In this document: one piece after another, positions 12,976 to 34,314 of the stretch
How the letters are laid out: every line of letters starts with the position of its first letter
How positions within the stretch are numbered: the first letter of the stretch is position 1
DNA from: Deltaproteobacteria bacterium
GTDB taxonomy: Bacteria > Desulfobacterota > Desulfobacteria > Desulfobacterales > B30-G6
NCBI GenBank assembly: GCA_022340465.1
Contig: JAJDNW010000118.1
Coordinates: forward strand, 1 to 47,716
Reading direction: 5' to 3'
Length of the DNA stretch: 47,716 nucleotides
Position numbers and translations under genes: made by a program
The notes under the pieces: generated by a model
The model's database searches: none
Seen by the model: the letters and a program-made list of their open reading frames with translations, nothing else
What the model was told of the DNA's origin: nothing

Positions 12976-13266
12976 TTAGCCCCCTGCAACCGGTGGAAAC
13001 AAGGCTACTTCGTCATTGTTGCATAGGTGGGTCTCCAGCTTATGCGGCAGGGTTGTATAGTGGCGGCCATTGACCAGCACCTTCAACATGTTGCTGATTT
13101 TTTTGGTTTTGGGGTCAAACACCTGATTTTTCAGGTGGTCGCCAAATTCTTCACAAAGCCCTTCCAACAGTTCCCTCAGCGTCAAATCATCGATTTCCAA
13201 TTCGATTTTGGTAAGATTTCCCATCACTTTCCGGAGCGTTAGAAAAGGCTTTACCGTAATTTTCAT
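12976..13266 (-). CDS. MoaD/ThiS-family sulfur carrier
   Basis: A 96-aa ubiquitin-fold protein ending in the obligatory Gly-Gly (ALFPPVAGG). The central part has VLVNGRHYTTLPHKLETHLCNNDEVALFPP, as in MoaD, where the C-terminal Gly is adenylated and thiocarboxylated to give sulfur to molybdopterin. It is the last gene of the mycofactocin locus. Small MoaD-like genes are often found with tungsten aldehyde ferredoxin oxidoreductases, so it probably helps make the pterin cofactor of the AOR at 31301-33172. That link is inferred. The ATG has GGAG 6 nt upstream. Confidence 0.85.
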   Translation of the reverse strand: MKITVKPFLTLRKVMGNLTKIELEIDDLTLRELLEGLCEEFGDHLKNQVFDPKTKKISNMLKVLVNGRHYTTLPHKLETHLCNNDEVALFPPVAGG

Positions 13267-13299
13267 TTTTACTCCATAAAGAGGTCGCTGATTTCCCCT

Positions 13300-14448
13300 C
13301 TAAATGTTAAAATATTTATCCAATCCCATATGGCGGTGCATTTCCATAAACTTCACACCGCCGGTCTGCCACAGCATTTTCAAATAGTGCCAGCCTTCGA
13401 AGGGTAGTGAATACCGCTCCAGCCCGGGCTCCGTGCAGCTGTGGCACTGGGGGAGGCGTCCGATGGTTTTCCTTATCCGGCCCGCCCGATCCGAAGAAAA
13501 CAGGTCTCCAACATCCGTTTCCGTGACATTGCCGACGCTCGCATTGATCAGGGGGCACAAAAACACCTCCCCGTTGCTGCGCACGAAGAAATAGTTGAAC
13601 CCGCAGGAACAAGGCTTACTCACCGAGCCTGTTTCAAAGTATTCCACCAGCGATCGGCCGTGAAAACTCCACTGAAACCGATCGCCGGAAAAAAAAGTGA
13701 TCATTTTCTGCAAATCCTGTTCGTCGAAGGCAAGATCTTCGGCCCGGTCCGGGTTCAGGTAGCGGCCCTCGGTGATGATGCACGGCGAAATGATGGTAAA
13801 CAGTCCTCTTGCTTCCGCATAGCGCGCAATGCCGTCAAGTTCATCCACGTTGAGCGGCAGGATAGTTGTCTTCACGCCTACGATCAGATTAGGAAAGGAT
13901 TTTCTCAAACCAACGAGGGCTTCGATGGTCCGGTCGACCGTCGGCCAGGCACCTGGAAAATTTCTGATCCGGTCATGCAGATCGCTAACGGCGTCCAGGG
14001 CACAGACCACTACGAGGTCGAGGCCTTGCTCCTGCATGATCGGCATCATGGCCTCTACGGCAGGCAGCACCCTCTCCGGCAAAAGGCCGTTGGTCGTGAC
14101 GGCAATGGACTTAAGGCCTGCATAATGGTCGTGCTTCAGGGTACAGATGCCGTTGAAAAGCTCCACCAGGTCACTGCGCAGGAACGGCTCGCCCCCGGTA
14201 ATATCCAACTCTCGAATATCCATGAATAGGTCCGAAGAGAGCAGGCTGAGCCATTGATCCATTGTCAGATTAGGCACGTCATGTGAAATCTTCCAGATAT
14301 TGCACATGACGCAGCGGGCCACACAATCATGGGTGATCTCCAAGCTTAAAGCCTGCGGCCTTCCAGGCCGGCCCGTGCGCCTCAGGTACCGATAGCGCAA
14401 GGCATTTTTGAGCAGTCCTGCGGCAATTTTCGCTGTTTCCATGGTCAT
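13300..14448 (-). CDS. radical SAM/SPASM-type protein (second extra)
   Basis: About 382 aa when started at ATG 14448, whose ATGA overlaps the stop of the preceding gene. The radical SAM site is CVARCVMC (CxxxCxxC), followed by the SAM-binding ITGGEPFLRSDL. The C-terminal auxiliary cluster region has CSCGFNYFFVRSNGEVFLCPL, SVGNVTE, and CHSC, a shortened SPASM-like domain. Such proteins modify peptides or cofactors. Its position between another radical SAM gene and the MoaD-like gene leaves two options: tungstopterin cofactor modification for the AOR (compare the cmo genes beside archaeal AORs), or an added step in mycofactocin maturation. The sequence does not decide. Confidence 0.8.
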   Translation of the reverse strand: MTMETAKIAAGLLKNALRYRYLRRTGRPGRPQALSLEITHDCVARCVMCNIWKISHDVPNLTMDQWLSLLSSDLFMDIRELDITGGEPFLRSDLVELFNGICTLKHDHYAGLKSIAVTTNGLLPERVLPAVEAMMPIMQEQGLDLVVVCALDAVSDLHDRIRNFPGAWPTVDRTIEALVGLRKSFPNLIVGVKTTILPLNVDELDGIARYAEARGLFTIISPCIITEGRYLNPDRAEDLAFDEQDLQKMITFFSGDRFQWSFHGRSLVEYFETGSVSKPCSCGFNYFFVRSNGEVFLCPLINASVGNVTETDVGDLFSSDRAGRIRKTIGRLPQCHSCTEPGLERYSLPFEGWHYLKMLWQTGGVKFMEMHRHMGLDKYFNI

Positions 14449-15533
14449 GGATTCCAGTTGTAAACCGATTTTCTCAAGTGGCAGCGGTCTTCCACCGACG
14501 TGAAGTTTCCACTGGCGGCGTAAGCCCTTCCTGAACAGCCGCCTGCACAATGTTCCTTGCCCACGCACGTTTTGCAAGGCTTCAATTCCTCACGCCGCCG
14601 GTGGTCCAGCACGGGCAAGCAGGCCCACAACCCTAAAGCCTTGGTTATGACGCTTTCCAGTGAACGTTCGTGGGCGCCTTCGACAGCGAAGGCCGGCGCC
14701 GGCATGTAATGGCAGGGATACACCAACCCTTGTGCGTCGATATATGGTGTTTCGATACATACGCATCTTTGTGCGGACCCTTGGGATCTGCCCTTGAACC
14801 ACTCCAAGGCGGCAATGTTGCCTATCCTTTCGTAGCGGGATCTGAATACCGTATCGGTTTGGTAAAGGTCCAGCAGGCGCTCGTATTGTTGAGGCGTGGG
14901 AGGGGCGATGTGGTCCGACGCTTTGGCGCGCCCCTGGGAAACCAGGGTGCCGCTAACACACCTTGAAATGCCCATCTCATCAGCCAATTCCAGCAGCAGG
15001 GGCAAATCGGCAAAATTGTGCACCATCTCGGTAAAGGCCACCTGGGTCTGTGGGCCGAGTCCGGATTCACATAGATGCCTCAACCCTGAGAGCGAGCGTT
15101 CAAAACTGCCCTTTCCTCTAACCATGTCGTGGGTTCTGGGTCCCGTGCCGTCCAGGCTTATCTGGACCAATATACGGGCACCTTCGACCGCCTTCAATTT
15201 ATCCACAACGGCATCGTCGATCAAGGTGCCGTTGGTCTGCAAGGTAACCCGCTTTATTCCAGCCTGCCCGCAGGCCTGCTCCAAAATGGTGTACCAGTCA
15301 GGGTGGAGCAACGGCTCCCCGCCGGCAAGGCAGATCTCTTCCGTTCCCAAGTCGGCAATTTCGTTTACCAGCCTCCCAAGGGTTTGTGTCGGGACCGGTG
15401 GAAAGGATTTTACCGAACCGCTGTCCGGCCAACAATGGCGACACCTCAAATTGCAGGCGTTGGTCATCGATAGAGTGACCATTCTTGGCGATCTTAAGCC
15501 TTTAGTTTTTATTTTCTCATGAAATAGTGACAT
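14445..15533 (-). CDS. radical SAM/SPASM protein (first extra)
   Basis: A 362-aa protein. The radical SAM motif is CNLRCRHC (about 27-34), followed by LAGGEPLLHPDW and QISLDGTG. The SPASM region (about 255-355) has CVCIETPYIDAQGLVYPCHYM, CKTCVGKEHCAGGC and a last ligand in SVEDRC, which would bind two auxiliary [4Fe-4S] clusters as in MftC, PqqE and AlbA. The start overlaps the end of the MftF gene by 17 nt, so the two are translationally coupled. It is related to MftC but distinct, so it is not a simple duplicate. It could modify the mycofactocin peptide further or act on the AOR cofactor. Confidence 0.85.
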   Translation of the reverse strand: MSLFHEKIKTKGLRSPRMVTLSMTNACNLRCRHCWPDSGSVKSFPPVPTQTLGRLVNEIADLGTEEICLAGGEPLLHPDWYTILEQACGQAGIKRVTLQTNGTLIDDAVVDKLKAVEGARILVQISLDGTGPRTHDMVRGKGSFERSLSGLRHLCESGLGPQTQVAFTEMVHNFADLPLLLELADEMGISRCVSGTLVSQGRAKASDHIAPPTPQQYERLLDLYQTDTVFRSRYERIGNIAALEWFKGRSQGSAQRCVCIETPYIDAQGLVYPCHYMPAPAFAVEGAHERSLESVITKALGLWACLPVLDHRRREELKPCKTCVGKEHCAGGCSGRAYAASGNFTSVEDRCHLRKSVYNWNP

Positions 15534-17094
15534 TTTGTGGTTGCGGCTTGGAAATCCTCGGGTTTACGGCATTGAAAGACAGCTGCTTCGTACATTGCCA
15601 CCACACACCCGCCTGATAGGACAGCTGCTCCATTGTAAAATAGACCATGAACCGGACCAGGTCCAATTTCGGTTTCTTGAGAAAAAACTCCACCAGGCCG
15701 TTCAGCAGATGCATGGCGGCAACAATGGTTGCTGCCATGGGTAACATGGAAAATGTAATAATTGCCCAGGCCAAGTAATATCGTGAAAAAAAAGCGCTGC
15801 AGTGAAAAAAAAGCGCTGCATAACTGCGGCAGAGAGAAATCGCCACCATGCCGAACGATATCCCCAATCCCCTTTGTTTCATATGGTTGGACTTGAAAAC
15901 GGATTCACCGAGGAGAACAACGCAAGGTAAAAGCAGCGGCCATAAGGACTTGAACCCTACTACAGCTAAAAGACCAACCCAGAACAGGGATGCCCAGGGC
16001 GAAAAAACCATTTGTTTGACTTTCCCGGGGTAAAGACGGTTCAGCAAAGGCTCCGAGGTCCCGTAATCGAAACGTCTTCTGCAAAACGCAACAAGCCGGT
16101 TGCGATGTTTGTGAAACACCTTGCCGGAAGGCAGATAATCGATATGAAATCCCAGTCGCCGGATGCGCCAGCACAGGTCCACATCCTCGCCGACCACTAG
16201 CTGCTCGTTAAAACCGCCGGCCTGAAGAAAAACCTCATGGCGCACCAGCAAATTACATGAAGGAACATAAAAAAAGGGATTGTTGCTCGCTGACCGCTTA
16301 GGCCACGATCCCATCTTCAATGACGACCGCACTTGTTCGTACCGGTCCAGCGGTCTTTCGACATAATAGCTTTCAACCATACCGCCCACGGCGGCTATCT
16401 TAAGGTCCTTGAAGGCGGGCACCAGCTCCCGCAGCCAGGTCCTGTCCGCCAGGCAGTCGGAGTCGATGAATGCCAATATATCGCCCCTGGCACTGACCGC
16501 CCCTATATTCCGGCAATAGGGCGCCTGGCGGTTCGTCTTGTTTTGGATCAATGTTACCGGATAATGCGACACACGGTCGGGCGTATCATCCGTCGATGCG
16601 TCGTCCACCACGATAATCTCGAGTTTGTCTTCGGGGTAATCGAGTCTTAAAAGTGAATCCAGACAGGCTGCAATGTCCCGGGGGCGATTGTGGACCGGAA
16701 CAATGACGGATATAAATGGAACCGTTTCCATTTCAGCCACCCCGATCCGCTCCAGAAAACCCCGGCGCACAAGGTCGTCGAGAAACGATTCAATTTTACC
16801 TTTATGCTGATTGTCAACAGCTGCAAGTATATCTTTGAATGGTATGAAAGCGCCTCCTGACAGCAGACTCATAACCTCCCGCCAGCACGGTTTCAGGAAA
16901 ATATATTTCAGGGGATAGGACAGGCACAGGTGAATCCCGCCTTCTGTTTTCGTAAGGCTCACGTTTGCCCGTAAACGATAGGCCAGCGGGCTGGGTCGAT
17001 CTTCGTTTATTCCCATGTGGTTTTGTGGTCGACTTTTTCCCATAGCTGGAAGTAATTTAAACCATTGTTGAAAAAATCTTTGCGTCCTCGCCAT
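15517..17094 (-). CDS. mftF: mycofactocin glycosyltransferase MftF
   Basis: A protein of up to 525 aa. The N-terminal about 120 residues form a PqqD-like region, followed by a GT2 glycosyltransferase domain: FISVIVPVHNRPRDIAACLDS, VVDDASTDDTPD, DSDCLAD (metal-binding DxD-type) and VGEDVDLCWRI (acceptor/ED motif). The C-terminus has several hydrophobic helices. This layout is that of MftF, which in mycobacteria adds a beta-1,4-glucan chain to premycofactocin. The start is uncertain: the ATG at 17094 has no clear ribosome binding site, and ATGs at residues 18 and 27 are alternatives. It lies 18 nt after EtfB in the same operon. Confidence 0.85.
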   Translation of the reverse strand: MARTQRFFQQWFKLLPAMGKSRPQNHMGINEDRPSPLAYRLRANVSLTKTEGGIHLCLSYPLKYIFLKPCWREVMSLLSGGAFIPFKDILAAVDNQHKGKIESFLDDLVRRGFLERIGVAEMETVPFISVIVPVHNRPRDIAACLDSLLRLDYPEDKLEIIVVDDASTDDTPDRVSHYPVTLIQNKTNRQAPYCRNIGAVSARGDILAFIDSDCLADRTWLRELVPAFKDLKIAAVGGMVESYYVERPLDRYEQVRSSLKMGSWPKRSASNNPFFYVPSCNLLVRHEVFLQAGGFNEQLVVGEDVDLCWRIRRLGFHIDYLPSGKVFHKHRNRLVAFCRRRFDYGTSEPLLNRLYPGKVKQMVFSPWASLFWVGLLAVVGFKSLWPLLLPCVVLLGESVFKSNHMKQRGLGISFGMVAISLCRSYAALFFHCSAFFSRYYLAWAIITFSMLPMAATIVAAMHLLNGLVEFFLKKPKLDLVRFMVYFTMEQLSYQAGVWWQCTKQLSFNAVNPRISKPQPQNVTIS

Positions 17095-17112
17095 TCAGGA
17101 TCTGCGAGCATT

Positions 17113-17964
17113 TCATGCTTCCACAAACCCGTGTTCGGTCAGAAAGTCCATGATGCCCTCTACTAGTTCTTCGGGTTCTCCTTGCAGCATGCGGCCCTTT
17201 TTCTCTATTTTGCTGCCGGTCAAAAGCTGCTGGACGCGTTCGATGGTCGGCAAGCTGCTGTCCGGTGCCACTGTCTGCTTGGGCCGGGGACGAGGCGGCA
17301 TGGTCTGCAAACTAGAAACCATGGCGTCGGTACATTCAATCGGGCCGGCAACCGATTGGATGGTTGCCGCGGCGGCCTTTTCAAGGTCAGTATGACGTGG
17401 AACACGATAGGTGTACAGCCCCATGTCCGCACTTAAAACAGCCGGTAGCGGGCAACTGACCCTCTCACGCACGCCTCTGCCACAGCTGCGGGTGGCCTCG
17501 ATCCGATCTTCGTCGCTGAAATATTCGAGATCCACGATTGCGGAAACAAAGGGGCGGTTCAGGTGGCCGGCAATGAGGGCGCCCACCAGGCCGTTTTGGC
17601 GATCCATGGACTCCTTGCCACATAGAATCAGGTCCGCGCCCAGCTGCCTGGCAACAGATGCCAGCTGTTTTGATTTTCCATAGGGGTCCAGAGGGAGATC
17701 CGTGTCAATGTGATGGAGGGCATCTGCCCCCAGGGCAAGACAGCGCCGCAGTTCGTCTTCGGCAATCATAGCCCCCAGCGTCAACAGGATTATCCTGGTT
17801 CCAGGAATATTCTCCTTGATCCTCAGCGCCGCTTCCAAGGCAGCCTCGTCATAGGGGTTGACGCGGACAATACGATCCAGTGGGGTTAGAAAATGATGCT
17901 CCGGGTCCATACCGCTCCGGGCATAGACCTGCTCGATCTGTTTGATGCATACGACTATTTTCAT
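17113..17964 (-). CDS. etfB: electron transfer flavoprotein beta subunit
   Basis: 283 aa from ATG 17964 (MKIVVCIKQIE), 5 nt after the stop of the preceding gene; five further in-frame residues upstream are unlikely. The ETF beta signatures are DRIVRVNPYDEAALEAAL (about 30-48), GADLILCGKESMDRQNGLVGALIAGHL (about 113-140) and an AMP-binding ETF fold. It forms the heterodimer with EtfA (20640-21656) and carries electrons from flavin dehydrogenases to the membrane oxidoreductase encoded just upstream. The etfA and etfB genes are unusually separated by the cytochrome and membrane Fe-S genes, which suggests these four products form one electron-transfer unit. Confidence 0.92.
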   Translation of the reverse strand: MKIVVCIKQIEQVYARSGMDPEHHFLTPLDRIVRVNPYDEAALEAALRIKENIPGTRIILLTLGAMIAEDELRRCLALGADALHHIDTDLPLDPYGKSKQLASVARQLGADLILCGKESMDRQNGLVGALIAGHLNRPFVSAIVDLEYFSDEDRIEATRSCGRGVRERVSCPLPAVLSADMGLYTYRVPRHTDLEKAAAATIQSVAGPIECTDAMVSSLQTMPPRPRPKQTVAPDSSLPTIERVQQLLTGSKIEKKGRMLQGEPEELVEGIMDFLTEHGFVEA

Positions 17965-17969
17965 TTTCT

Positions 17970-19874
17970 CTACCCCCAAACTGTTTCACGCTGCATGGAT
18001 GCCGCCACAATTTCTACAATATCCTTGACCTTGGGAAGGGTGTCCCTTCCCAGTCCACCAACCCCGTCTTCCAGCATGGTCAAGCAGTAGGGACATGCCG
18101 TGGCCACCACATCAGGTTCGGCGTCACAAATCTCCCGGGCACGCAATTGGTTGATGCGCTGCCCCTCGGTTTCGTGCAGCCACATCTGGCCGCCGCCACC
18201 GCCGCAACAGAAGCCGTTTTCTCGGCTGCGTTCAAGCTCCCTGACAGTCAGCCCGGGAACCGATCGGCTGATTTCCCGCAAGGGCTCGAACACCTTGTTC
18301 ACCCGGCCCAGATAGCAGGGATCGTGAATGGACAGGTAACCAGCTTGCGGGTATTTTATCTGGATGCGGCCCTCACGGATAAGCCCGGCTATCAGTTCGC
18401 TGCTGTGCAGCACCGTGTACAAACCGTCCAGCTGGGGATACTCATTTTTCAAACTGTGCAGACAGTGAGGACAAAGGGTAACCAGTTTGTTGAACGCATG
18501 GGCCTTTAACTGCTGAATATTCTGAGAAGCCAGCTGTCTGAAAAGGGTTTCATCCCCCAGTCGGCGGGCCGGGTCGCCGCAACAAAGTTCTCCATGCCCA
18601 AGAATGGCAAATTCAACTCCAGCGGTCTTGAGAATTTCGACCAGGTCACGACTGACCTCCCGGTACCTGGGGTGATAGGCGCCGGCACAGCCCACCCAGA
18701 TCAGAATTTCGGTGGTTTGCTTGTCCCTGCCGATAACGGGTACCCCGCAGTTGAGGGTCCAGTCGGTCCTCAAGGCAGACCCCTTACCGTATGTGTCGCC
18801 GAACAGCTGCAGGTCCCGTATCATCGGACGCGCTTCCGCGGGCAGCGCTCCTTTGCCCATGACCCGCTGGCGTCTGAATTCGATGACCTTGTCGGCGGGA
18901 GCGGTCATCACAGGGCAGGCGGCCACGCAGGCCATGCAGGTGGTGCAGGCCCACAGGTCCCGATCGTCGACCACGTCCTGCACCGGCAGGGGATCGCCGA
19001 ACCTTTCCCTTTCGGCGGCGCCCAGCAATTGCTGCACGACCCTTCGGGGCGACAGAGCCTTTTCCGACAGGGAGGCCGGACAACGCTCCACGCAACGGCC
19101 GCAGGACACACAGGCCTCGGCTTCCAGCAACTGCTTCCATGAAAAATCGCCGACAACACCGACAAAAGGCCGGCTATCGTTCCGGGGCCGGGCCGTGAAC
19201 CCTTCCAGGGGATCGTCGTCGCGATGATACACATTCAACGACGCGGCAACAATGTGACGCATGAAGGTATACGGCATAACCGCCACAAACACCAATACCA
19301 GAAAGAAATGGACACGGATGCTCAGCTGCAGCATCAACGGTGATTCCGGGAGTATTCGTGACACGATAAAACCGACGGGTGCCTGCCAGGCAAAAGCCAC
19401 GGGAATTATTTTAAGGCGCAGACCTTCGGCCAGAAAGCCGGTCAGGGTAATACCCATGACCAGCAATGCCGGCAGAACTATCCGCCGGGGTAGGATGCCG
19501 TCCAGGGAACTCCCCCTGGTTTTTCCGCAGCGGATGAAGAAGTACAACATGCCCATAAGCAGCAACAGGCCGGACACGTCCAGCAAAAAGGAAATGGTGC
19601 CGGAGAGCGCCAGGGGCAGCTTGAATTCAAACTGAGCCGCCAGGACCACAACGATAAAGACGATAAAAGACCAGAACAGAAACAAGTGAGCTATACCGGC
19701 CGGCTGCCTTTTCAATACAGCCCGATGAGATATCAGATATCCCAACAGATGCCTCAGGCTTCCTTTGGGCTTCTCTGCCCTCCCATTCATCCATATGGCC
19801 CGCCTCCGTGAAAAACCGACGGTTATGATCAGAAGCGCGGAAACGACCAGGAATACGTCCAGAGATGTAAACAC
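17970..19874 (-). CDS. membrane Fe-S oxidoreductase (ETF:quinone-type, DUF224/EMO-like)
   Basis: About 634 aa from GTG 19874 (VFTSLDVFLVVSALL), chosen because the previous gene ends at 19879. The N-terminal half has five or six membrane helices like NarI/HdrE cytochrome b. A double ferredoxin follows (CVSCGRCVERCP at about 257 and CTTCMACVAACP at about 305), then two CCG domains (GCAGAYHPR... CCGDP ... CPHC and DPCYLGR ... CCGGGGGQMW ... CPYC) that bind non-cubane Fe-S clusters. This matches the ETF:(methyl)menaquinone oxidoreductases of syntrophs and sulfate reducers. It probably accepts electrons from EtfAB and reduces menaquinone or passes them to the cytochrome c encoded by the preceding gene. 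Confidence 0.85.
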   Translation of the reverse strand: MFTSLDVFLVVSALLIITVGFSRRRAIWMNGRAEKPKGSLRHLLGYLISHRAVLKRQPAGIAHLFLFWSFIVFIVVVLAAQFEFKLPLALSGTISFLLDVSGLLLLMGMLYFFIRCGKTRGSSLDGILPRRIVLPALLVMGITLTGFLAEGLRLKIIPVAFAWQAPVGFIVSRILPESPLMLQLSIRVHFFLVLVFVAVMPYTFMRHIVAASLNVYHRDDDPLEGFTARPRNDSRPFVGVVGDFSWKQLLEAEACVSCGRCVERCPASLSEKALSPRRVVQQLLGAAERERFGDPLPVQDVVDDRDLWACTTCMACVAACPVMTAPADKVIEFRRQRVMGKGALPAEARPMIRDLQLFGDTYGKGSALRTDWTLNCGVPVIGRDKQTTEILIWVGCAGAYHPRYREVSRDLVEILKTAGVEFAILGHGELCCGDPARRLGDETLFRQLASQNIQQLKAHAFNKLVTLCPHCLHSLKNEYPQLDGLYTVLHSSELIAGLIREGRIQIKYPQAGYLSIHDPCYLGRVNKVFEPLREISRSVPGLTVRELERSRENGFCCGGGGGQMWLHETEGQRINQLRAREICDAEPDVVATACPYCLTMLEDGVGGLGRDTLPKVKDIVEIVAASMQRETVWG

Positions 19875-19878
19875 AGCC

Positions 19879-20643
19879 CTATTCCTTCCTCTTCGATACG
19901 CGTGAAAAACGACGAACCAGCCAGCGAAATCCACCGATAACCAATACCAACAGGGACAGCTGATAGCCTACGGCCGCAACCGTAACACCCGGTTGCTTAT
20001 CCCACCTGACCTCCGGGTGCATGACACCCCACAGCTTGTTTTTCCCGTCTTTATCCAGGTGACAGGTGTGGCATTTCTGGTCGTTCAAGGGATCGGTTTC
20101 ACCGTGGGCGGCCCTTCCCTGGTGGCATCCCAGACAATTATCCATGTCGTAAACCTGTGAAAAATCCTGTTTGGGGTGCGACGCAACCCGGATCGAGGGT
20201 AACCAGGCCATGTATCCGCTTGAACCGCTTTGAACGGGATGACAGGACCGACAGGTTTGCCTCAACCTGTCCGGATGCACGGATGAGCGCGGGTTCTTCG
20301 GTGAAAGGATACCGTGCCGGGTATGGCAGCTGAAGCACTTTGGGCGGCCCTGCGTCGCTCCCGCCCCGTGCTGATTGAACTTGTCATGACAGGCGGCACA
20401 ATCCACCGCCCCGGATCCCTGTGTCTCCTGGTGGTCCTCGTCCAACACGTTGGTGTGGCACCCCTGGCAGGAACCCTCTTTCCCGTGAACCGAGCGCTTG
20501 AACTGCTCCATTGACATTTTGAGCAGGGATTCCTGGCTGTCTCCGCCATGACACCTTATGCAATCCTCGTCCGTGTAGGCGCCTGCTCCTACTACCGGGA
20601 GTAAAAACAAAACCAGCAGGATGTACATGATGCGGATTTTCAT
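19879..20643 (-). CDS. periplasmic multihaem cytochrome c (7 CxxCH), membrane-anchored
   Basis: A 254-aa protein. The signal peptide (about 1-22) is followed by seven haem c motifs: CIRCH, CQGCH, CAACH, CFSCH, CRSCH, CLGCH and CHTCH. Extra His residues (HGKEGS, HDKF, HPKQDF) could act as distal ligands. A C-terminal helix (VTVAAVGYQLSLLVLVIGGFRWLV) and a basic tail anchor it in the inner membrane. It overlaps the end of etfA by 4 nt and is followed immediately by the EMO-like gene. It is likely the periplasmic exit or entry point for electrons of this locus. I do not assign it to a named cytochrome family. Confidence 0.88.
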   Translation of the reverse strand: MKIRIMYILLVLFLLPVVGAGAYTDEDCIRCHGGDSQESLLKMSMEQFKRSVHGKEGSCQGCHTNVLDEDHQETQGSGAVDCAACHDKFNQHGAGATQGRPKCFSCHTRHGILSPKNPRSSVHPDRLRQTCRSCHPVQSGSSGYMAWLPSIRVASHPKQDFSQVYDMDNCLGCHQGRAAHGETDPLNDQKCHTCHLDKDGKNKLWGVMHPEVRWDKQPGVTVAAVGYQLSLLVLVIGGFRWLVRRFSRVSKRKE

Positions 20644-23141: not shown

Positions 23142-23148
23142 AATCTCT

Positions 23149-23295: not shown

Positions 23296-23318
23296 CATCA
23301 GCGGGCGAGAGGTCCCAT

Positions 23319-27223: not shown

Positions 27224-28233
27224 GCCACGTTTCTAAGGTTGACCAGACATTCCGGATCCGGCATGTCGATGTCGTTGTAGGTGTGAAAGGCCATGGCCGG
27301 GCAACCGCCGCGGCAAACCTCGAAACGGGAGCAGGCCCGGCACGAGGCGATGTCCAGGTTCCTCAACCTTTCAAAAATGGGAGAATGATTCCACATCTCC
27401 TTAAAATCCGTGTTGCGGACGTTGCCGACCAGAAAAGGCGGTTCCTGCAGAAAGGCGCAGGGGTACACATCCCCTGCGGGGGAAATGCAGCAGGTCATCT
27501 TGGCGGCCCCGCACATATCCAGCCCTTTGCGGCGTCTGCTTTCGGATGTCAGGCAGAAAAAGGAATCACCCGTGCGCACAAGGTCGTGCCTTGCCAGCCA
27601 TTCCGCAAATTCTTCCAGTTGCTCCGCGTTGGGCGCCAGATCCTTACGGCTGTCTTTACCCCGGCCCGAAGGACGGAAACGGGAAACCCGCAGCTCGGCA
27701 CCGCACCCCTTGGCAAGATTGCGCAGATCGTCCAGCTGAGGGTAGTTGAGCCGGGTCAGCACCGCATTGATGCTGAAAGCCACTCGGTTCGATGCAAAAC
27801 AGTCCGCTGCCGCCAGGATTTTTTTATAGGTGCCTTTTCCCCGGATACGGTCATTGACATCTGCGGTGGCGCCGTCCAGGCTGAGCTGCAGATAGAGCAT
27901 CTTCAACCCGGCCAGACGCGAGGCCAGTTGACTGTTTATCAGGGTCCCGTTGGTGCTGACACAGGTCACGACGCCTTTTGTATGCGCGTAATCGAGTATG
28001 TCACAAAAATCGTCCCGGATAAAAGGTTCGCCGCCCCCGATGTTGACTTGGAACACTTTCATGGCCGCCAAGCGGTCGATAACCCGGCGGCACTCCTCGA
28101 AGCTCAGCTCCTGTGGTGACCCGGCACCCGATGCCGAAAGGCAGTGTTCACAGTGCAGGTTGCATTTCAAGGTTATCTCCCAGGTAACGTTGACCGGCGC
28201 CCTTAAAGCTGTTTTCATCATTTTAGCACTCAA
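27220..28233 (-). CDS. mftC: mycofactocin radical SAM maturase MftC
   Basis: 337 aa started by TTG at 28233, chosen because AAAGGAG stands 6-7 nt upstream; it overlaps the end of mftB. The radical SAM motif CNLHCEHC (about 24-31) is followed by NIGGGEPFIRDDF and QLSLDGATADVNDRIRG. The SPASM region has CGAAKMTCCISPAGDVYPCAFL, CRACSRFEVCRGGCP and DPEC, for two auxiliary [4Fe-4S] clusters. In mycobacteria MftC decarboxylates the C-terminal Tyr of MftA and crosslinks it to the preceding Val. Its position directly behind mftA and mftB makes the assignment firm. Confidence 0.93.
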   Translation of the reverse strand: MSAKMMKTALRAPVNVTWEITLKCNLHCEHCLSASGAGSPQELSFEECRRVIDRLAAMKVFQVNIGGGEPFIRDDFCDILDYAHTKGVVTCVSTNGTLINSQLASRLAGLKMLYLQLSLDGATADVNDRIRGKGTYKKILAAADCFASNRVAFSINAVLTRLNYPQLDDLRNLAKGCGAELRVSRFRPSGRGKDSRKDLAPNAEQLEEFAEWLARHDLVRTGDSFFCLTSESRRRKGLDMCGAAKMTCCISPAGDVYPCAFLQEPPFLVGNVRNTDFKEMWNHSPIFERLRNLDIASCRACSRFEVCRGGCPAMAFHTYNDIDMPDPECLVNLRNVA

Positions 28234-28486
28234 GGATGACTCCTTTACTTTTAAGCTGCCTCAAAGCGGTGGCCACCATTTCAAGCTTTCCATCAATGTC
28301 ACCATTACACCCGTGCTTACGACCCATCCACGCTGCCAGCGTCATCTCTCCCCGGAAAAAATCCTCTGCGAGAAGTCGGCCCGAGGCCACGAAATGCAGC
28401 CTCGGCCCTTTCATCTGATAGAACAGGAGACCGAAGTCCTCTTCCCGGACCTGGACGCCCGCCGCCAATTTGTAATGTTTGTCCAT
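28223..28486 (-). CDS. mftB: mycofactocin peptide chaperone MftB
   Basis: 87 aa from ATG 28486 (MDKHYKLAAGVQVREEDFGLLFY). A start 24 codons upstream is open but its extra residues look non-coding. The pattern VREEDFGLLFYQMKGPRLHFVASGRLL matches MftB, a PqqD-like RiPP recognition element that binds the MftA leader and presents it to MftC. It sits between mftA and mftC and overlaps mftC by 11 nt. A GGGA lies 9 nt before the ATG. Confidence 0.9.
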   Translation of the reverse strand: MDKHYKLAAGVQVREEDFGLLFYQMKGPRLHFVASGRLLAEDFFRGEMTLAAWMGRKHGCNGDIDGKLEMVATALRQLKSKGVILEC

Positions 28487-28560
28487 CTCAACGAATCCCA
28501 ACCCGGCTATAACGGGAAAAAAATGATTGCTGCCAGGCTCCCAACACTCCAAGCCCACAC

Positions 28561-28592: not shown

Positions 28593-28599
28593 TGGTCTA

Positions 28600-28743
28600 T
28601 TAGTAAACGCCGCAGATACCGTCTATCGCCATCTCTTCTATTTCGATTTCCTCGATCTTAAAAATGTCTTCCGGCTCTTTTTCGGATGTGTCCGGCAACA
28701 CGCCTTCTTCCTTGTCGAATTCTTTTTCCACGATGTCCTCCAT
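28600..28743 (-). CDS. mftA: mycofactocin precursor peptide MftA
   Basis: A 47-aa acidic peptide beginning MEDIVEKEFDKEEGVLP and ending IEIEEMAIDGICGVY, then TAA. The C-terminal core IDGICGVY is the hallmark of mycofactocin precursors: MftC acts on the last two residues, Val and Tyr. The leader is strongly acidic, as expected for recognition by MftB. The start is uncertain. The ATG at 28743 has no ribosome binding site, while a GTG at 28731 (giving 43 aa) has GGAGG exactly 5 nt upstream and may be the real start. Order mftA-mftB-mftC on the same strand is canonical. Confidence 0.95.
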   Translation of the reverse strand: MEDIVEKEFDKEEGVLPDTSEKEPEDIFKIEEIEIEEMAIDGICGVY

Positions 28744-28831
28744 GAACGATGGCAAGGAAGATGCAAATCAGGCGATATTTACATCTTCTTTGCCACACAA
28801 ATGGTTACTGTTTCACTGAAACCAAACTGGG

Positions 28832-29320
28832 TTAAATGCCTAGATCGCTTCTTTTCTGGACCAGCTCTTTTTTGAAGGCCTCGAGCTCTTCAGGGCCTAA
28901 ATCATCCGGGAATTTCAGGTCTACCTGCGTCAGGACATCCACCAGTGTATTGGCGTGCGGCCCAAGAGATAGGGCGCCTACCGTGTCACCCTTTTCCAGT
29001 TTGACGCGACCGCCCATGAAGGCACCCACGAATTTGTCTTTCTTGGTGAGAATTCTTTTCCAGGCCGGCGGTGTCGCGGACATGATGTAATCGGCATTCT
29101 CAAAGGCATAGTCTTTTGAACAGTGCTTGAACTCTTTCAACTTGCCGGCTTCCAACTGCATGGAAATGAAAAGATCATTCTCGATACCCCACTCTGGCAT
29201 GGCGTTGATCTGGTAGGCGAAGCTGCCGCTCAAGCTGGAAAGCTTTTTTTCAAAACCCTCGTCATACAGAGCTACGCTGTCGTCTACCCATTCCGGTTGC
29301 GGATAAATGTAAGTTGCCAT
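28832..29320 (-). CDS. SCP2 sterol-carrier-like lipid-binding protein
   Basis: A 162-aa soluble protein. The region from about 60 to 145 (FENADYIMSATPPAWKRILTKKDKFVGAFMGGRVKLEKGDTVGALSLGPHANTLVDVL) has the SCP2 domain pattern: substrate strand, helix with W, then GxxKLxGD-like strand and hydrophobic helix. SCP2-like proteins bind fatty acids, sterols or acyl-CoA. Sitting between the acyl-CoA synthetase gene and mftA, it may hold the hydrophobic alcohol, acid or acyl-CoA of this pathway. A GGAAAGGAG site precedes the ATG. Confidence 0.75.
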   Translation of the reverse strand: MATYIYPQPEWVDDSVALYDEGFEKKLSSLSGSFAYQINAMPEWGIENDLFISMQLEAGKLKEFKHCSKDYAFENADYIMSATPPAWKRILTKKDKFVGAFMGGRVKLEKGDTVGALSLGPHANTLVDVLTQVDLKFPDDLGPEELEAFKKELVQKRSDLGI

Positions 29321-29372
29321 TGTTCATCTCCTTTCCCATTTTGGTTGTTAAAACAATCGTTACGTGATGCCT

Positions 29373-31049
29373 TTATTTGTTTTTAAACGCGGCGATGGCC
29401 TCATCCCTCAATTGGCGCTTAAAAAGTTTTTCGGTCACGGTCATCGGCAATTCATCCCTGAATTCCACGTACTTGGGTACGGCATAGGGTGCCAGATTCT
29501 CCTTGCAGAAATTGACGATGTCCGCTTCAGTGACTTTGCCCTTATCCTCCTCCTTCAGCTGAATTACCGCCATAACCCTCTCGCTGCCCGGGTTTTTCGG
29601 GTCCGGTACACCGAAAGCGGCTGCCATGAGGACTCCCGGATGTTTGAAGAGGACCTCGTCTACCGTTGTAGTGTAAACCTTCATGCCGGACACGTTGACC
29701 ATGTCCTTGATACGGTCGCTGATGAAAAAGTAACCGTCTTTGTCCATATAGCCGATATCACCGGTATGCAGCCACCCGTCCTCGGTGAGGCCCCTGCCGG
29801 CATCGGGCCAGTAGCCTTTCATGGTCTGCGGACCGCGCACCACGATTTCCCCCTCTTCACCAAAGGGCACCTCTTCACCGGTTTCCGGGCTGACTAGTTT
29901 GCATTCAGTATCCGGAAGCGGCACGCCGATACCCTTTTTTTCCTTGGCCATGAACCCTGTGATGCGCCCGAACCCGGACAGGTCGGCGTGGGTCCCCGGC
30001 CCGGTTTCGGTCAGCCCGTAGGCCTCGCCCACCGGATTGCCCATCTCCTTTTGCACGGCCATGCGCACTTCATCCGGCAGCGGCGCGGATCCGCTCAGGG
30101 CCATGGCGTTCAAACGTCCGATCTTGGCCTGGGCCAGGCGCATGAGCTGGGTGGGAACACATGGGATCATAAAGGGCCGGTATTCCTTGATCGTTTTGAC
30201 CAGCTTGTCCGTATCCCTGGGGTCTTTCAGCAAAATAATCCGCAGCCCCCAGAATACGGCCGCCTGGTGGATGTAATGCCCGAAAGCATGAAACAAGGCC
30301 AGGGGGATGAGCACCGAGGCCTTGCCCACGATACCCGGCGCCATGGGCCCCAGCATCCAGGGCATCAACTGCATGAGGTTGCAATAGCGGCCGTAGTGGG
30401 TAATCATGACCGCCTTGGGCAACCCGGTGGACCCGCCGGTATGAGGCAGTTCGCACAAATCTTCCTTGGGATCGATGTCCAATTGCGGCGGGTTGGGGTC
30501 GTTTTCCTCGATGAGCTTGCCGAATTCGTAGACCCCCTTAGGAAGGCTTTGGGCTACCGGTCCCACATCATACCCCTTGTCGGAAGTGACGATGATGTTC
30601 TCAACGCCGCAGGCCTCCTTCAGGCCCAGAATCCGCTCGAAATCCTTTTCCTGGCAGATGATTGCCTTGCTGTTCGAATTCCCGGCCTCGTGCACGATGC
30701 CGTCGTCCGGCCGCAGGGTGCTGGTGGGCACGATGACGCCGCCGGCCTTCTGGATACCCCAGGTGCTGACGATATATTCAAAACAGTTTTCCATGAAAAT
30801 ATTGACACGATCTCCCTTGTGGATCCCCAGACCGGCCAAAGCCGTTGCCAGACGGTCGGCATGATCTTTCAAGTCCCTGTATTTCAGCAGTCTTTCTTCG
30901 AAAAGAACAGCAGTTTTTCCAGGGTATTTTTCGGCGGCATCATCCAGCACCTTGAAAATGGGAACTTCCGGATAGGGAGCCAGGGTCTCCTTCAACTTGT
31001 AGGGGCCTAGTTTGTAGCTTTTCAGCCACGGTTTATCTGCATAACCCAT
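29373..31049 (-). CDS. AMP-forming acyl-CoA synthetase (fatty/aryl acid-CoA ligase)
   Basis: A 558-aa ANL-family enzyme. The signature motifs are the P-loop-like HTGGSTGLPKAVMITH (about 206-221), the A5 motif AYGLTETGPG (about 345), A7 GWLHTGDIGYMDKDGYFFISDRIKDM (about 425-450) and the catalytic C-terminal Lys in LFKRQLRDE. It makes acyl-CoA from acid, ATP and CoA, the third step after alcohol and aldehyde oxidation in this gene order. The substrate is not determined by sequence; long-chain or aromatic acids are the common choices. AAGGAG precedes the ATG. Confidence 0.88.
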   Translation of the reverse strand: MGYADKPWLKSYKLGPYKLKETLAPYPEVPIFKVLDDAAEKYPGKTAVLFEERLLKYRDLKDHADRLATALAGLGIHKGDRVNIFMENCFEYIVSTWGIQKAGGVIVPTSTLRPDDGIVHEAGNSNSKAIICQEKDFERILGLKEACGVENIIVTSDKGYDVGPVAQSLPKGVYEFGKLIEENDPNPPQLDIDPKEDLCELPHTGGSTGLPKAVMITHYGRYCNLMQLMPWMLGPMAPGIVGKASVLIPLALFHAFGHYIHQAAVFWGLRIILLKDPRDTDKLVKTIKEYRPFMIPCVPTQLMRLAQAKIGRLNAMALSGSAPLPDEVRMAVQKEMGNPVGEAYGLTETGPGTHADLSGFGRITGFMAKEKKGIGVPLPDTECKLVSPETGEEVPFGEEGEIVVRGPQTMKGYWPDAGRGLTEDGWLHTGDIGYMDKDGYFFISDRIKDMVNVSGMKVYTTTVDEVLFKHPGVLMAAAFGVPDPKNPGSERVMAVIQLKEEDKGKVTEADIVNFCKENLAPYAVPKYVEFRDELPMTVTEKLFKRQLRDEAIAAFKNK

Positions 31050-31159
31050 ACAATATCTCCTTAATATCCCCTAAGGTGAGCGCTTCAAATTTTAAAAATT
31101 GTTATAATTTTATTGTGTTAAATTGATTGTACGCATCTGTATTCTTAAAAATTGAAATC

Positions 31160-31266
31160 TTTCGAGATTGCCGATCTTACCGCATCTACGGCGTCAGATG
31201 CCATCCCGCATAGCCCACTATAGCAAAATATCATCTTCCTTGTATCTGCGGCAATCTCGGCAATCG
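31160..31266. repeat. inverted repeat CGAGATTGCCG ... CGGCAATCTCG
   Basis: In the roughly 250-bp gap between the AOR and ligase genes, an 11-bp segment at about 31162-31172 recurs in perfect inverted form at about 31249-31259, with a loop of roughly 75 nt, plus flanking partial copies of GGCAATC. It resembles a short dispersed repeat rather than a terminator, as no T run follows. Confidence 0.45.
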
Positions 31267-31300
31267 CCCAGCTTAGGTATTCATCTCACCCGTCCCTGAA

Positions 31301-33172
31301 TTATCCCCAGAGGTCGGTCTTGAGGTCGTCCAATCCCAGTTCTGCCAGTTTTTCAGGAGTCGGCTTTCCCGTGGCGAGATCCCAACCGCGATAACCGTAG
31401 TATGCATCCTTCAGCCTTTCCAGATCGGCTTTTTCGAGGACCATCCCTTCGGCGGAACCACCCGGCAGAGGATCTTCCATCAGCCGCGCCGGCAGCGCAT
31501 CCTTTTCCCGGTCGATGCCTTCGCGCACGCAAAAAGCGCGCACCAGGTTGTAGACCCGCTCCCCGCCTTTGCGGAAATCATCTTCCGTGAAATCCCAGCC
31601 GGTGGCATTGGCGATCAGATCGACATAGTCTTGGGCGTAGAGCAGGAGACCGAAGAACTTGCACCCGCCGAGGCAGTCGAAAACCGTACACCCGTTTTCC
31701 ATGTCCATGACGATCTTGGCTTCCTCAGGAACCACCTGGAACAGGTCCTGAATGTGGCTGTCCTCCACCAGCAGAATTGGACTGTCAATGAAGGTGGGTG
31801 CGATGACGGTCGCGGAAACATGGTCCCCACCACGATTGGCGGTGACATAGCTCAACCCGACGATCTTGGCAGCCCTTGGATCGTAGGCCGGTAGCTCCAG
31901 CCCCTTGACGTTCATGGCGAACCGCTCGGATCCCTGGCCGACTTTTTGGGCTACCAGGCGGCTGCCTTCGGCCAACAGATCCCCGATCCCTTCTCTTTTG
32001 GCGATCATCTCTACCAATTTGACCACCAACTCGCCATCCCCGAAATTGATCTCGAGCCCGCCGGTGTCCGCCGTTGTCAGGAAGCCTTTCTCGAAGCACT
32101 CCATAGCAAACGCAATGGTCGATCCGGCAGAGATGGTGTCCAGGCCGTACTCGTTGCAGAGGTAGTTGGCCATGGTGATGGTGTTGATGTCGGCCACATC
32201 GCACTGGGCCCCCAGGGTGTTGGAGGTCTCGTATTCGGGTCCCTCCCCCTTGTGGCCCTTGTAGGGGCCCTCCTGAATTTCGGAGCCCCTGCCGCAGGCA
32301 ATGGGGCAGGCGAAACAGTTCACCCGGGACGTCAGGACTTTTTCGGCAATGGCCTGAGCGTTGACGTGTTCAATGCCTTCGAATTCCCCCTGCTGCCAGT
32401 TGCGCGTGGGGTAACCGCCCTTGACGTTGACCATGTCGGCCACCATGGCCGTGCCGAAGGTCTCGAAGCCGATCTTCAACAAAGACTCGTTGATTAGTTC
32501 GAACTGCTTTTTAGCCGTTTCCTTGAAAGCCTCCTTGTTGGCCAGCTCAGACAAAGCCTTGCCGGAAACCGCAACGGCCTTCACCTTTTTTGCGCCCATG
32601 ACAGCCCCGACGCCGCAGCGACCGGCGGCACGGTGCTTGTTGTTCATGATGGAAGCGAACTTGACCAGGTTTTCCCCGGCGGGGCCGATGCAGGCCACCG
32701 TGAAACCCTTGCCCAGATCTTCTTTCAGGCTGTCCTCCGTTTCCGGTACCATCTTTCCCCACAAATGCGCTGCATCGCACAGTTCAGGCTGGCCGTCGGC
32801 GATCTTCAGATAGACTGGCCGGGGGGATGTTCCCTCGAAGATGATGCCGTCGAAACCGCTGCGCTTGAGCGCCGGCCCGAAGCTGCCCCCCGAGTTGGAC
32901 TGTCCCCAGATGCCGGTAAGCGGTGACTTGGTAACCACGGAATAGCGGCTGGAACTGGGGGAGGTGGTCCCGGTGAGTGGTCCGGTGAAAAAGATGAGCT
33001 TGTTTTCCGGGCCTAGAGGATCCGCCCCTTTGGGAACCTCGTCATACAGGTAGCGCGTGGCAATACCTGCGCCGCCAAGATACTTGCGGGCCACGTCCTC
33101 GGGAAGATTTTCCTCGGAGAGGGTTCCCGCGGTCAGGTCAACCCGTAGCAACTTTCCCATAAATCCAAACAT
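31301..33172 (-). CDS. aor: tungsten-type aldehyde ferredoxin oxidoreductase
   Basis: A 623-aa AOR-family enzyme. The N-terminus MGKLLRVDLTAGTLSEENLPEDVARKYLGGAGIATRYLYDE is typical. The [4Fe-4S] ligands are in CFACPIACGR (about 285-294) and the late CLGGCKF (about 497). The pterin-binding segments include RAAGRCGVGAVMGAKKVKAVAV and GPEYETSNTLGAQCDV. AORs oxidise aldehydes to carboxylic acids, reduce ferredoxin, and use W-bis-pyranopterin. Here it follows an alcohol dehydrogenase and precedes an acyl-CoA synthetase, so it probably oxidises the aldehyde made by the former. A ribosome binding site AGGAGA precedes the ATG. Confidence 0.92.
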   Translation of the reverse strand: MFGFMGKLLRVDLTAGTLSEENLPEDVARKYLGGAGIATRYLYDEVPKGADPLGPENKLIFFTGPLTGTTSPSSSRYSVVTKSPLTGIWGQSNSGGSFGPALKRSGFDGIIFEGTSPRPVYLKIADGQPELCDAAHLWGKMVPETEDSLKEDLGKGFTVACIGPAGENLVKFASIMNNKHRAAGRCGVGAVMGAKKVKAVAVSGKALSELANKEAFKETAKKQFELINESLLKIGFETFGTAMVADMVNVKGGYPTRNWQQGEFEGIEHVNAQAIAEKVLTSRVNCFACPIACGRGSEIQEGPYKGHKGEGPEYETSNTLGAQCDVADINTITMANYLCNEYGLDTISAGSTIAFAMECFEKGFLTTADTGGLEINFGDGELVVKLVEMIAKREGIGDLLAEGSRLVAQKVGQGSERFAMNVKGLELPAYDPRAAKIVGLSYVTANRGGDHVSATVIAPTFIDSPILLVEDSHIQDLFQVVPEEAKIVMDMENGCTVFDCLGGCKFFGLLLYAQDYVDLIANATGWDFTEDDFRKGGERVYNLVRAFCVREGIDREKDALPARLMEDPLPGGSAEGMVLEKADLERLKDAYYGYRGWDLATGKPTPEKLAELGLDDLKTDLWG

Positions 33173-33195
33173 AATAGTCTCCTGACGGTTTCAGG

Positions 33196-34314
33196 TTAAA
33201 AATCAAAGACCCAGCGTCCGACAATCTCGCGGTTTTCCATGGCATTGATGACGTCGTTTACCTGGTCCAGGCTCAGATGTTTGGTAATCATGTCTTTGAG
33301 GTTGATTTGACCTTTTAAAACCATATTGGCCAAGCGCGGAATGTCAATCTGGTGCCGCAGATTTCCGTACAAAACCCCTATGATTTGGTTTCCCTGGAAG
33401 GGAATGGCATAAAATGGGAGCATCACCATATCTTCGCAGGAAGGGATGCCGACCGCCATCATTTTACCACCGTTTTTCAAGACGAAAAATGACTGCAGAT
33501 AGGCGCCCGGATCGCCGATGGCCTCGAAAACCCAATGAACTCCTAGACCGCCGGTCAGTTCTTCGCGGATGATGGGCACCGGGTCCTGTTCGCTGCTGTT
33601 GATGAAGTGGGTGGCCCCCATTTTCCTGGCAATCTCCTCTTTGGAGCCTTCCAAGTCCACGGCGATGATGGGATCGGCGCCGGCCAGCCGGGCTCCCTGA
33701 ATTATATTCAAGCCGATTCCCCCCATGCCCCACACGGCAACGGATTCACCGGCCTGGACGCCGGCTGAGCGGTGCACCGCCCCCCAGCCTGTTCCCACGG
33801 CGCAGCCCAGCAGACAGGCCTGGTCCATGGGCAGTTCATCGGGTACCTTTACGGAGGCGACGGCCGGTGAAACGATGTACTCCGAGAAGCCGGACACGTA
33901 CAGGGCGTGGTTGACCACTTCGCCATCCTTGGTACGAAATCTGGCAGTGCCGTCCGACGGCAGTTTGCCGCTTCCCAGGCTCGGTAATAGGTTATCGCAA
34001 ATATGCGTATTACCGCTGACGCAGTTCTCGCACGTGCCACAGGGTGCCTGCCAGCAGGAAACAACGTGGTCGCCGGGTTTTAAATTCGTCACGCCTTCGC
34101 CCACCGCCTGAACGACCCCGGCGGTTTCATGCCCCAGCACCAGCGGCAGCACGTCCAGGCCGTAAATGCCCTTCCAGGCGCTCAAATCGGAATGACAAAA
34201 CCCGGTGTGGGCGACTTTGACCAGCACTTCTCCGGCTTTGGGATCTTCAAGTTCCAGTTCTTCGATGGTCATGGGCTCTCCCCAATCTCTCGTTACAGCG
34301 GCTTTCGTTTTCAT
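33196..34314 (-). CDS. zinc-dependent alcohol dehydrogenase (MDR family), probable mycofactocin-dependent nicotinoprotein
   Basis: 372 aa from ATG 34314 (MKTKAAVTRDWGEPMTIEELEL), preferred because AAAGGAG is 6 nt upstream. Catalytic zinc residues appear in GFCHSDLS and GHETAGVVQAVGEGV. The structural zinc ligands are CGTCENCVSGNTHIC (CxxCxxCx7C). The NAD fold motif is VAVWGMGGIGLNIIQGA. It resembles the class of NDMA-dependent alcohol dehydrogenases that hold NAD permanently and need mycofactocin as electron acceptor. That link is inferred from the first-gene position in a mycofactocin operon. It is the first gene downstream of a sigma-54 promoter. Confidence 0.85.
   Translation of the reverse strand: MKTKAAVTRDWGEPMTIEELELEDPKAGEVLVKVAHTGFCHSDLSAWKGIYGLDVLPLVLGHETAGVVQAVGEGVTNLKPGDHVVSCWQAPCGTCENCVSGNTHICDNLLPSLGSGKLPSDGTARFRTKDGEVVNHALYVSGFSEYIVSPAVASVKVPDELPMDQACLLGCAVGTGWGAVHRSAGVQAGESVAVWGMGGIGLNIIQGARLAGADPIIAVDLEGSKEEIARKMGATHFINSSEQDPVPIIREELTGGLGVHWVFEAIGDPGAYLQSFFVLKNGGKMMAVGIPSCEDMVMLPFYAIPFQGNQIIGVLYGNLRHQIDIPRLANMVLKGQINLKDMITKHLSLDQVNDVINAMENREIVGRWVFDF

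Follow-up and report, generated by a model that had tools for sequence, protein, structure and literature searches.

A probable sigma-54-controlled mycofactocin operon for oxygen-independent alcohol oxidation in a member of the Desulfobacterales

The window analyzed here is a stretch of 47,716 nucleotides (contig JAJDNW010000118.1, assembly GCA_022340465.1, Deltaproteobacteria bacterium, Desulfobacterales), in which a single run of minus-strand genes extends from 34347 down to 12976, from an alcohol dehydrogenase (ADH) to a MoaD-like gene (open reading frame [ORF] coordinates). This run is probably an operon under sigma-54 control, the products of which would make mycofactocin in the absence of oxygen and use it for alcohol oxidation. 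It encodes MftA, MftB, MftC and MftF along with the ADH, two flavoproteins of the Old Yellow Enzyme (OYE) type and an electron transfer flavoprotein (ETF), and it lies beside a gene for a sigma-54 activator, with an exact sigma-54 site in between. ADH, MftABC, OYE, EtfA, EtfB and MftF are found together in 7 of the 27 other mftB-positive loci that we compared (several of them cut by contig ends), in two other genera. The chemistry of the mycofactocin route in this organism, which its relatives suggest to be an anaerobe, is what we infer from these genes. Neighboring genes of the run often overlap by a few bases, as in translationally coupled operons. The features are, with coordinates and strand:

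34821..40742 (minus): giant regulator, 1973 aa, Ser/Thr kinase - AAA_16 - GAF - PAS - sigma-54 AAA+ activator - Fis helix-turn-helix (Pfam; GESGTGKE and GAFTGA in the sequence)
34632..34647 (minus): exact match to a sigma-54 (-24/-12) promoter, TGGCACACCTTTTGCT, about 320 nt upstream of the ADH ATG
33196..34347 (minus): Zn-dependent ADH, probable ATG start at 34314; best NCBIfam match NDMA-dependent ADH, below cut-off
31301..33172 (minus): putative tungsten-type aldehyde:ferredoxin oxidoreductase of the AOR family, by its relation to 1aor
29373..31049 (minus): acyl-CoA synthetase, long-chain type, below cut-offs among the matches listed
28832..29320 (minus): SCP2-family protein
28600..28743 (minus): MftA precursor, 47 aa, C-terminus AIDGICGVY (from sequence and relatives)
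28223..28558 (minus): MftB chaperone, probable start near 28486; TIGR03967 over cut-off
27220..28233 (minus): MftC radical-SAM maturase; TIGR03962 over cut-off
25274..27223 (minus): FadH/OYE flavoprotein a (OYEa), Fe-S motif with one Cys replaced by Asp (CLKDNQGC)
23319..25277 (minus): FadH/OYE flavoprotein b (OYEb), mycofact_OYE_2 over cut-off; full CxxCxxxC...C motif
21759..23141 (minus): GlpC-like protein, two CCG domains, no predicted transmembrane helix
20640..21692 (minus): EtfA
19879..20643 (minus): seven-heme c-type cytochrome (seven CxxCH motifs), hydrophobic helices at N- and C-terminus
17970..19934 (minus): EtfD-type membrane ETF:menaquinone oxidoreductase, 654 aa, with transmembrane region, dicluster and two CCG domains
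17113..17979 (minus): EtfB
15517..17094 (minus): MftF glycosyltransferase; TIGR03965 over cut-off
14445..15533 (minus): rSAM2, SPASM radical-SAM enzyme, below every NCBIfam cut-off among the best 25 of 73 matches
13300..14577 (minus): rSAM3, further radical-SAM/SPASM protein, probable start near 14448
12976..13266 (minus): MoaD/ThiS-like small protein, final gene of the run

A first-pass annotation, made from the sequence alone, had listed MftA, B, C and F, two OYE proteins, ADH, AOR, acyl-CoA synthetase, SCP2, EtfAB, a CCG-domain protein, a seven-heme cytochrome and a membrane protein, and we found all of them in place on the minus strand, the seven hemes being borne out by the seven motifs. 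Its description of the locus as an anaerobe-type mycofactocin system beside a sigma-54 activator also agrees with our data. In calling the pathway complete, it overlooked the two further radical-SAM genes and the MoaD-like gene (12976-15533), as well as the lack of MftD and MftE over cut-off in a genome that is 95% complete.

Mycofactocin Genes Present and Missing

Families were called by bit scores relative to the curated NCBIfam cut-offs, and the survey of the class covered 389 genomes, of which 28, including that of the window, have MftB (27 of them over cut-off). In the window, MftB (TIGR03967; 49 bits, cut-off 33), MftC (TIGR03962; 382, cut-off 265) and MftF (TIGR03965; 360, cut-off 280) all score above their thresholds, and MftA carries the C-terminal DG-x-CGVY signature. 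Neither MftD (TIGR03966) nor MftE (TIGR03964) was found over cut-off in any of the 28 mftB-positive genomes. The best MftD match in the window's genome reaches 23 bits for a cut-off of 471, and the top MftE match, an unlinked creatininase-like domain, reaches 160 bits for a cut-off of 172 and so does not qualify. The electron acceptor of MftD is oxygen. According to the accessible text of PMC11778925, standard maturation proceeds from the cyclized core made by MftC through release by MftE to deamination by MftD, which gives premycofactocin (PMFT), and the accessible part of Haft 2011 (PMC3023750) reports the MftD and MftE families in most, not all, cluster-bearing species.

Companion control plasmids with annotated genes were positive in both searches (4/4 for MftD, 3/3 for MftE). 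The joint presence of the two genes beside mft is not universal in these plasmids either: within annotated 13-kb stretches, Streptomyces and Tsukamurella have both, Thermomicrobium and Mycolicibacterium chubuense have mftD and no mftE, Haloterrigena has mftE and no mftD, and Halolamina shows only a "creatininase family protein."

Two candidate substitutes were considered and rejected. Ordinary lactate-oxidase homologs, as a general replacement for MftD, reach E 1e-20 in 19 of the 28 mftB-positive genomes, all of them under the cut-off, and in the window's genome no homolog reaches this threshold. Unlinked creatininase-like proteins, as MftE, occur in 9 of the 28 at E 1e-10, again none over cut-off, and in the window's genome only as part of a 749-aa protein. 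This MftE-like domain forms the C-terminal part of the protein (G000:C130:117922-118641), unlinked to mft; G349, G367, and G398 likewise have MftE-like matches, within open frames roughly 800 aa long. A single-protein search for MftG gave no match in 29 genomes, although of its two positive controls one, W03 with an annotated mftG, was likewise missed. No MftR-type gene lies in the operon run, beyond which the genome was not searched.

The peptide itself varies within the class. MftA ends in VDGICGIY in 11 of the 26 relatives' loci in which it was found (G117, G349, G096, G256, G388, G246, G089, G011, G361, G036, and G184; none was found in G237). Because MftA ends in CGIY there, the core dipeptide of these loci would be Ile-Tyr, and the predicted mycofactocin one CH2 heavier. 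The CGVY ending is given as invariant in the accessible part of PMC3023750.

Probable Sigma-54 Control

Both hallmarks of a sigma-54 operon are present in the sequence, namely an enhancer-binding protein with a GAFTGA motif and an upstream, predicted -24/-12 promoter. The site is an exact TGGCAC-N5-TTGCT on the operon strand (34632-34647), in the gap between the regulator gene and ADH. Four exact sites are found in the window for 0.10 expected from shuffles; a search tolerating two mismatches gives no more than chance (27 vs. 27.0). The three other exact sites are at 5896-5911 (minus), 8139-8154 (minus), and 43426-43441 (plus), the last lying inside a pyruvate:ferredoxin oxidoreductase gene, on the opposite strand. 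A repeat search around the ADH promoter was negative.

The distance of about 320 nt between the site and the ADH start codon speaks against sigma-54 control, as does the finding that in 24 of the 27 relatives' loci neither ADH nor mftA is directly preceded by a sigma-54 site, even with one mismatch allowed. One-mismatch sites occupy this position in the other three (two in G090, one each in G380 and G058), at a distance of 67 to 414 nt from the called gene that follows. A sigma-54 activator immediately precedes ADH in G090, and a sigma-54 activator homolog is found in the fetched DNA of 11 of the 27 class loci, at distances of up to 13 kb. We also gathered 80 named loci through rSAM2, the last seven of which (L204-L210) are only about 30% identical to it; this set overlaps that of the class, as matching coordinates identify G389 with G218, G392 with G090, and G404 with G036. 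A sigma-54 response-regulator match is present in 41 of the 80 and an iron-type alcohol dehydrogenase (Fe-ADH) match in 34. Control of alcohol and mycofactocin genes by sigma-54 thus seems to recur among these bacteria, use of the promoter being predicted.

A Second Radical-SAM Enzyme and Its Possible Roles

rSAM2 has the CxxxCxxC motif and the full set of SPASM cysteines, conserved across 42 sequences, and scores 118 bits with the MftC model TIGR03962, for a cut-off of 265. In a tree of rSAM2, MftC, and ten other radical-SAM sequences, it forms one clade (42 rows, support 100/100) apart from MftC (28 rows, 100/99). The structure model is confident (pLDDT 93.5) and has the predicted fold of peptide-modifying SPASM enzymes, with Z scores of 25-27 to ChlB, SuiB, anSME, SkfB, and CteB (which we take to be the protein of structures 5why and 5wgg) and of 22 to PqqE; the first five fall within two Z units, and the comparison cannot separate the classes of these enzymes. 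The closest solved relative in sequence is SkfB (E 2.4e-21). rSAM2 shares the predicted fold and the SPASM cysteines with this group, in which we also count MftC, and differs from MftC in belonging to a separate, fully supported clade.

Its distribution follows that of the mycofactocin genes. Matches above 400 bits occur in 23 of the 389 class genomes, 19 of them mftB positive for 1.7 expected (P ~7e-22), and by genus the figure is 13 of 14 for 1.8 expected (P ~2e-13); these statistics count genomes or genera, with relatedness corrected by genus only. Two rSAM2-like matches of about 200 bits (G013 and G269), neither accompanied by MftC over cut-off, were dropped as a different group. When 50 of the 80 named loci were submitted to a genome-wide search, MftC was over cut-off in 38 of the 50 genomes, and MftB, MftC or MftF was present in the searched DNA of 21 of the 80 loci, a count that includes by hand L164, whose MftC is cut by a contig end. 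Most of these named relatives belong to the Desulfobacterales or the Desulfuromonadales/Geobacteraceae; Anaeromyxobacter and one Spirochaetes metagenome-assembled genome are also among them. rSAM3, at E 1e-70, is found in 15 of the 389 genomes, 10 of them mftB positive and 11 rSAM2 positive. Twelve plasmid records with MftC yielded no rSAM2 at E 1e-20 (the sole match was MftC itself), chromosomes not having been searched.

rSAM2 thus tends to co-occur with mycofactocin in related bacteria, and it may do the job of the missing MftD and MftE; that it acts in oxygen-independent mycofactocin maturation is our best reading. More tentatively, rSAM2 could take over the work of both MftE and MftD in a single step, as a premycofactocin synthase that needs no oxygen. 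In MftA already treated by MftC, it would remove the alpha hydrogen from what had been the valine and oxidize this residue to an N-acyl imine, as proposed for sactisynthases; hydrolysis of the imine would then give PMFT, the keto-amide, and leave the leader peptide with a C-terminal amide. For the sactisynthases AlbA and SkfB, the accessible text of PMC8326336 describes alpha-hydrogen abstraction with a possible ketoimine intermediate.

Several observations weigh against a role in maturation. Four rSAM2 genomes lack mftB, and MftC is present in one (G218) and was not found in G069, G166, and G262; rSAM2 and rSAM3 stand together without mftB or MftC in G166 and G262, and rSAM2 stands alone in G069. 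Conversely, 9 of the 28 mftB-positive genomes lack both rSAM2 (threshold E 1e-50) and MftD over cut-off (G011, G091, G096, G165, G256, G349, G361, G367, and G380; three are less than 80% complete). Among the 43 genomes with both rSAM2 and MftC, MftD is over cut-off in two (G412 and G442), and 20 carry a creatininase-like protein that falls short of the cut-off for MftE, MftE itself being over cut-off in none. In Geobacteraceae, finally, rSAM2 adjoins Fe-ADH and regulators more often than mft genes.

The last point is central to a first alternative, possible although rather unlikely in our view, in which rSAM2 acts together with rSAM3 and the MoaD-like protein to mature some other part of alcohol metabolism, such as a dehydrogenase or AOR's tungsten cofactor, and its co-occurrence with mycofactocin reflects only a shared role in alcohol oxidation. 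In Geobacteraceae and relatives, rSAM2 usually lies between an Fe-ADH, a histidine kinase, a sigma-54 regulator, and a second Fe-ADH; loci of this type with mftC outside the examined stretch (e.g., L163, L166, and L171) read Fe-ADH, histidine kinase, sigma-54 regulator, an rSAM2-like protein (~30% identical), rSAM2, Fe-ADH. Over the 80 named loci, matches to Fe-ADH (34) and to the regulator (41) outnumber those with an mft gene (21), and in the window rSAM3 and the MoaD-like gene come after rSAM2. However, the adjacent ADH varies between Zn and Fe types whereas MftC is constant (38 of 50 rSAM2 genomes), and the fold is that of enzymes acting on peptides. As for AOR, six long loci of the second sort described below have rSAM2 beside Zn-ADH and mft genes and no AOR match in 35 kb; therefore rSAM2 does not track AOR.

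We consider it unlikely that the MftD step is instead carried out by one of the OYE/FadH flavoproteins, working like histamine or trimethylamine dehydrogenase and passing its electrons to ETF, leaving rSAM2 another role. OYEb is related to these amine-oxidizing Fe-S flavoproteins, and both OYE genes and the ETF lie inside the operon. Yet OYE_1 and OYE_2 are NCBIfam "mycofactocin system" families that occur beside mft in actinobacteria also carrying MftD, and 11 of 12 LarC-bearing loci have no OYE match among called ORFs, in genomes still devoid of MftD over cut-off. It is more improbable still that the product is unfinished or different from the mycobacterial redox cofactor (an AHDP-peptide or glycoside), making MftD and MftE unneeded, for although none of the 28 class genomes has either of the two over cut-off and the MftA core varies (CGVY or CGIY), the retention of MftF, of OYE_2 over cut-off, and of an ADH nearest to the NDMA-dependent family would make little sense without a redox-active product.

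Proposed Electron Exit, Relatives' Loci, and Known Systems

The best NCBIfam match of the ADH is NDMA-dependent ADH (TIGR03989), at 324 bits for a cut-off of 440, and EtfA and EtfB likewise fall short of mft_etfA (140 vs. 240) and mft_etfB (98 vs. 200), three scores that argue against a mycofactocin-linked role for these proteins. OYEb exceeds the mycofact_OYE_2 cut-off (TIGR03997; 842 vs. 793), OYEa does not (721). Relatives of OYEb include FadH, histamine dehydrogenase, and trimethylamine dehydrogenase, all Fe-S flavoproteins. Trimethylamine dehydrogenase reduces ETF. In OYEa, as in the OYE proteins of loci of the second sort, Asp takes the place of the second Cys in the [4Fe-4S] motif (CxxDNxGC-like), whereas all four Cys are kept in OYEb. 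The AOR, a putative tungsten enzyme, has 1aor as its best solved relative (E 1e-150) and carries a CFACPIAC motif. The 654-aa membrane protein, correctly recognized in the first-pass annotation as of ETF:quinone type, is closest to mycobacterial EtfD (9ojn, E 2.9e-87), and has its transmembrane domain, two [4Fe-4S] sites, and two CCG domains, as a putative ETF:menaquinone oxidoreductase. Mycobacterial EtfD (9OJN) wires ETF to menaquinone through Fe-S clusters and heme b (accessible text of PMC13083937).

We propose that the activator would sense a substrate or the energy state and open the promoter upstream of ADH. MftB would bind MftA, MftC would cyclize it, and MftF would glycosylate it; because MftD and MftE are missing, the active keto-amide would be reached by a non-standard route, for which rSAM2 is the best candidate. 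ADH would oxidize the alcohol with bound NAD(H) and pass electrons to mycofactocin, an OYE-type Fe-S flavoprotein would reoxidize mycofactocinol and reduce EtfAB, and electrons would leave through the EtfD-type protein, perhaps with the seven-heme cytochrome, to menaquinone, in place of MftG. In the window's species, the aldehyde may continue through AOR and acyl-CoA synthetase.

The relatives' loci are of roughly three sorts. Window-like loci comprise G090 (ADH-AOR-MftABC-OYE-OYE-EtfA-cytochrome-...-EtfD-EtfB-MftF, activator adjacent) and, in parts, G380 and G180. Six loci from one other genus read ADH-ADH-MftABC-OYE-EtfA-FixC-like-EtfB-MftF-aldehyde dehydrogenase, with a FixC-like protein where the window has the EtfD-type one. 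The third sort, 12 of the 27, bears LarC, with LarE-like and mostly LarB-like genes and mostly a short-chain dehydrogenase/reductase and a small AOR; some have Fe-ADH, histidine kinase, and sigma-54 regulator. The Lar-type genes, LarC-like (Ni_insertion), mostly LarB-like (AIRC), and LarE-like (recognized by eye, Pfam giving none), lie shortly after mftC (e.g., L060:14308-17208), in some loci with MftF in between; we found no paper joining mycofactocin with lactate racemase in the literature searched.

The proposed exit chain is not general: 11 of the 12 LarC-bearing loci have no OYE or ETF match (G117 has OYE), and an EtfD-type match occurs in 1 of the 27 class loci and 9 of the 80 named ones, many being cut by contig ends. 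The series OYE-EtfA-cytochrome-EtfD-EtfB with MftF, rSAM2, and rSAM3 does recur in the named Desulfobacterales L146, L147, L148, and L159. SCP2 has no match in the 27 relatives' loci, acyl-CoA synthetase a single one at 25% identity, and the congener G218 (which matches L131, a named Desulfobacterales bacterium) has an AOR of another kind (29% identity), with OYEa and OYEb 69% and 85% identical. For these reasons, the conserved core of this sort, as judged from sequence, is ADH, cofactor biosynthesis, OYE, and ETF, without the acyl-CoA branch; AOR, acyl-CoA synthetase, and SCP2 are best read as a local add-on, and the complete alcohol-to-acyl-CoA pathway of the first-pass annotation does not hold as the built-in function. 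The gap between AOR and acyl-CoA synthetase is the largest of the run (~250 nt) and contains an imperfect inverted repeat of 24 nt (31163-31265, 79%), with an exact 11-nt pair, possibly a regulatory or mobile repeat.

With the mycobacterial system (MftA-F, MftG, MftR), the window shares MftA, MftB, MftC, MftF, an alcohol dehydrogenase partner, and probably delivery of electrons to the respiratory chain. It differs in having no MftD or MftE over cut-off, a sigma-54 activator and no MftR-type gene in the run, OYE, ETF, and EtfD within the operon, and the extra rSAM2 and rSAM3. Mycofactocin in anaerobes is not new, as clusters in Geobacter, Desulfotomaculum, and Pelotomaculum were published in 2011 (PMC3023750); what is new is the missing MftD and MftE with the extra rSAM2. 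As far as the accessible part of that paper goes, the clusters of Geobacter uraniireducens, Pelotomaculum, and Desulfotomaculum share anaerobic hosts, a radical-SAM maturase, a glycosyltransferase, and an adjacent alcohol dehydrogenase; their partners are mainly of the Fe-ADH family, and neither a further radical-SAM enzyme nor an ETF/EtfD chain nor regulation by sigma-54 is named there. We found no report of a second mycofactocin radical-SAM enzyme or of sigma-54 control in the literature searched, outside which lie many subscription papers, including a 2019 review. EtfD and the Syntrophomonas ETF:menaquinone Fe-S oxidoreductase share with the window's protein the membrane region, two [4Fe-4S] sites, and two CCG domains; in the accessible text of PMC13083937 and PMC5101538 they are fed by acyl-CoA dehydrogenases through ETF, whereas the window's protein is encoded in a mycofactocin operon with OYE flavoproteins.

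The mycofactocin pathway involves one radical-SAM enzyme only according to the accessible text of a review (PMC8326336), and in this class it may involve two or three. What replaces MftG in the ~25% of MftC genomes without it was left open in 2025 (PMC11778925, accessible text). The locus offers testable candidates, OYE-ETF-EtfD for reoxidation and rSAM2 for maturation without MftD, and a one-step rSAM2 synthase, if true, would account for the joint absence of MftD and MftE in these anaerobes.

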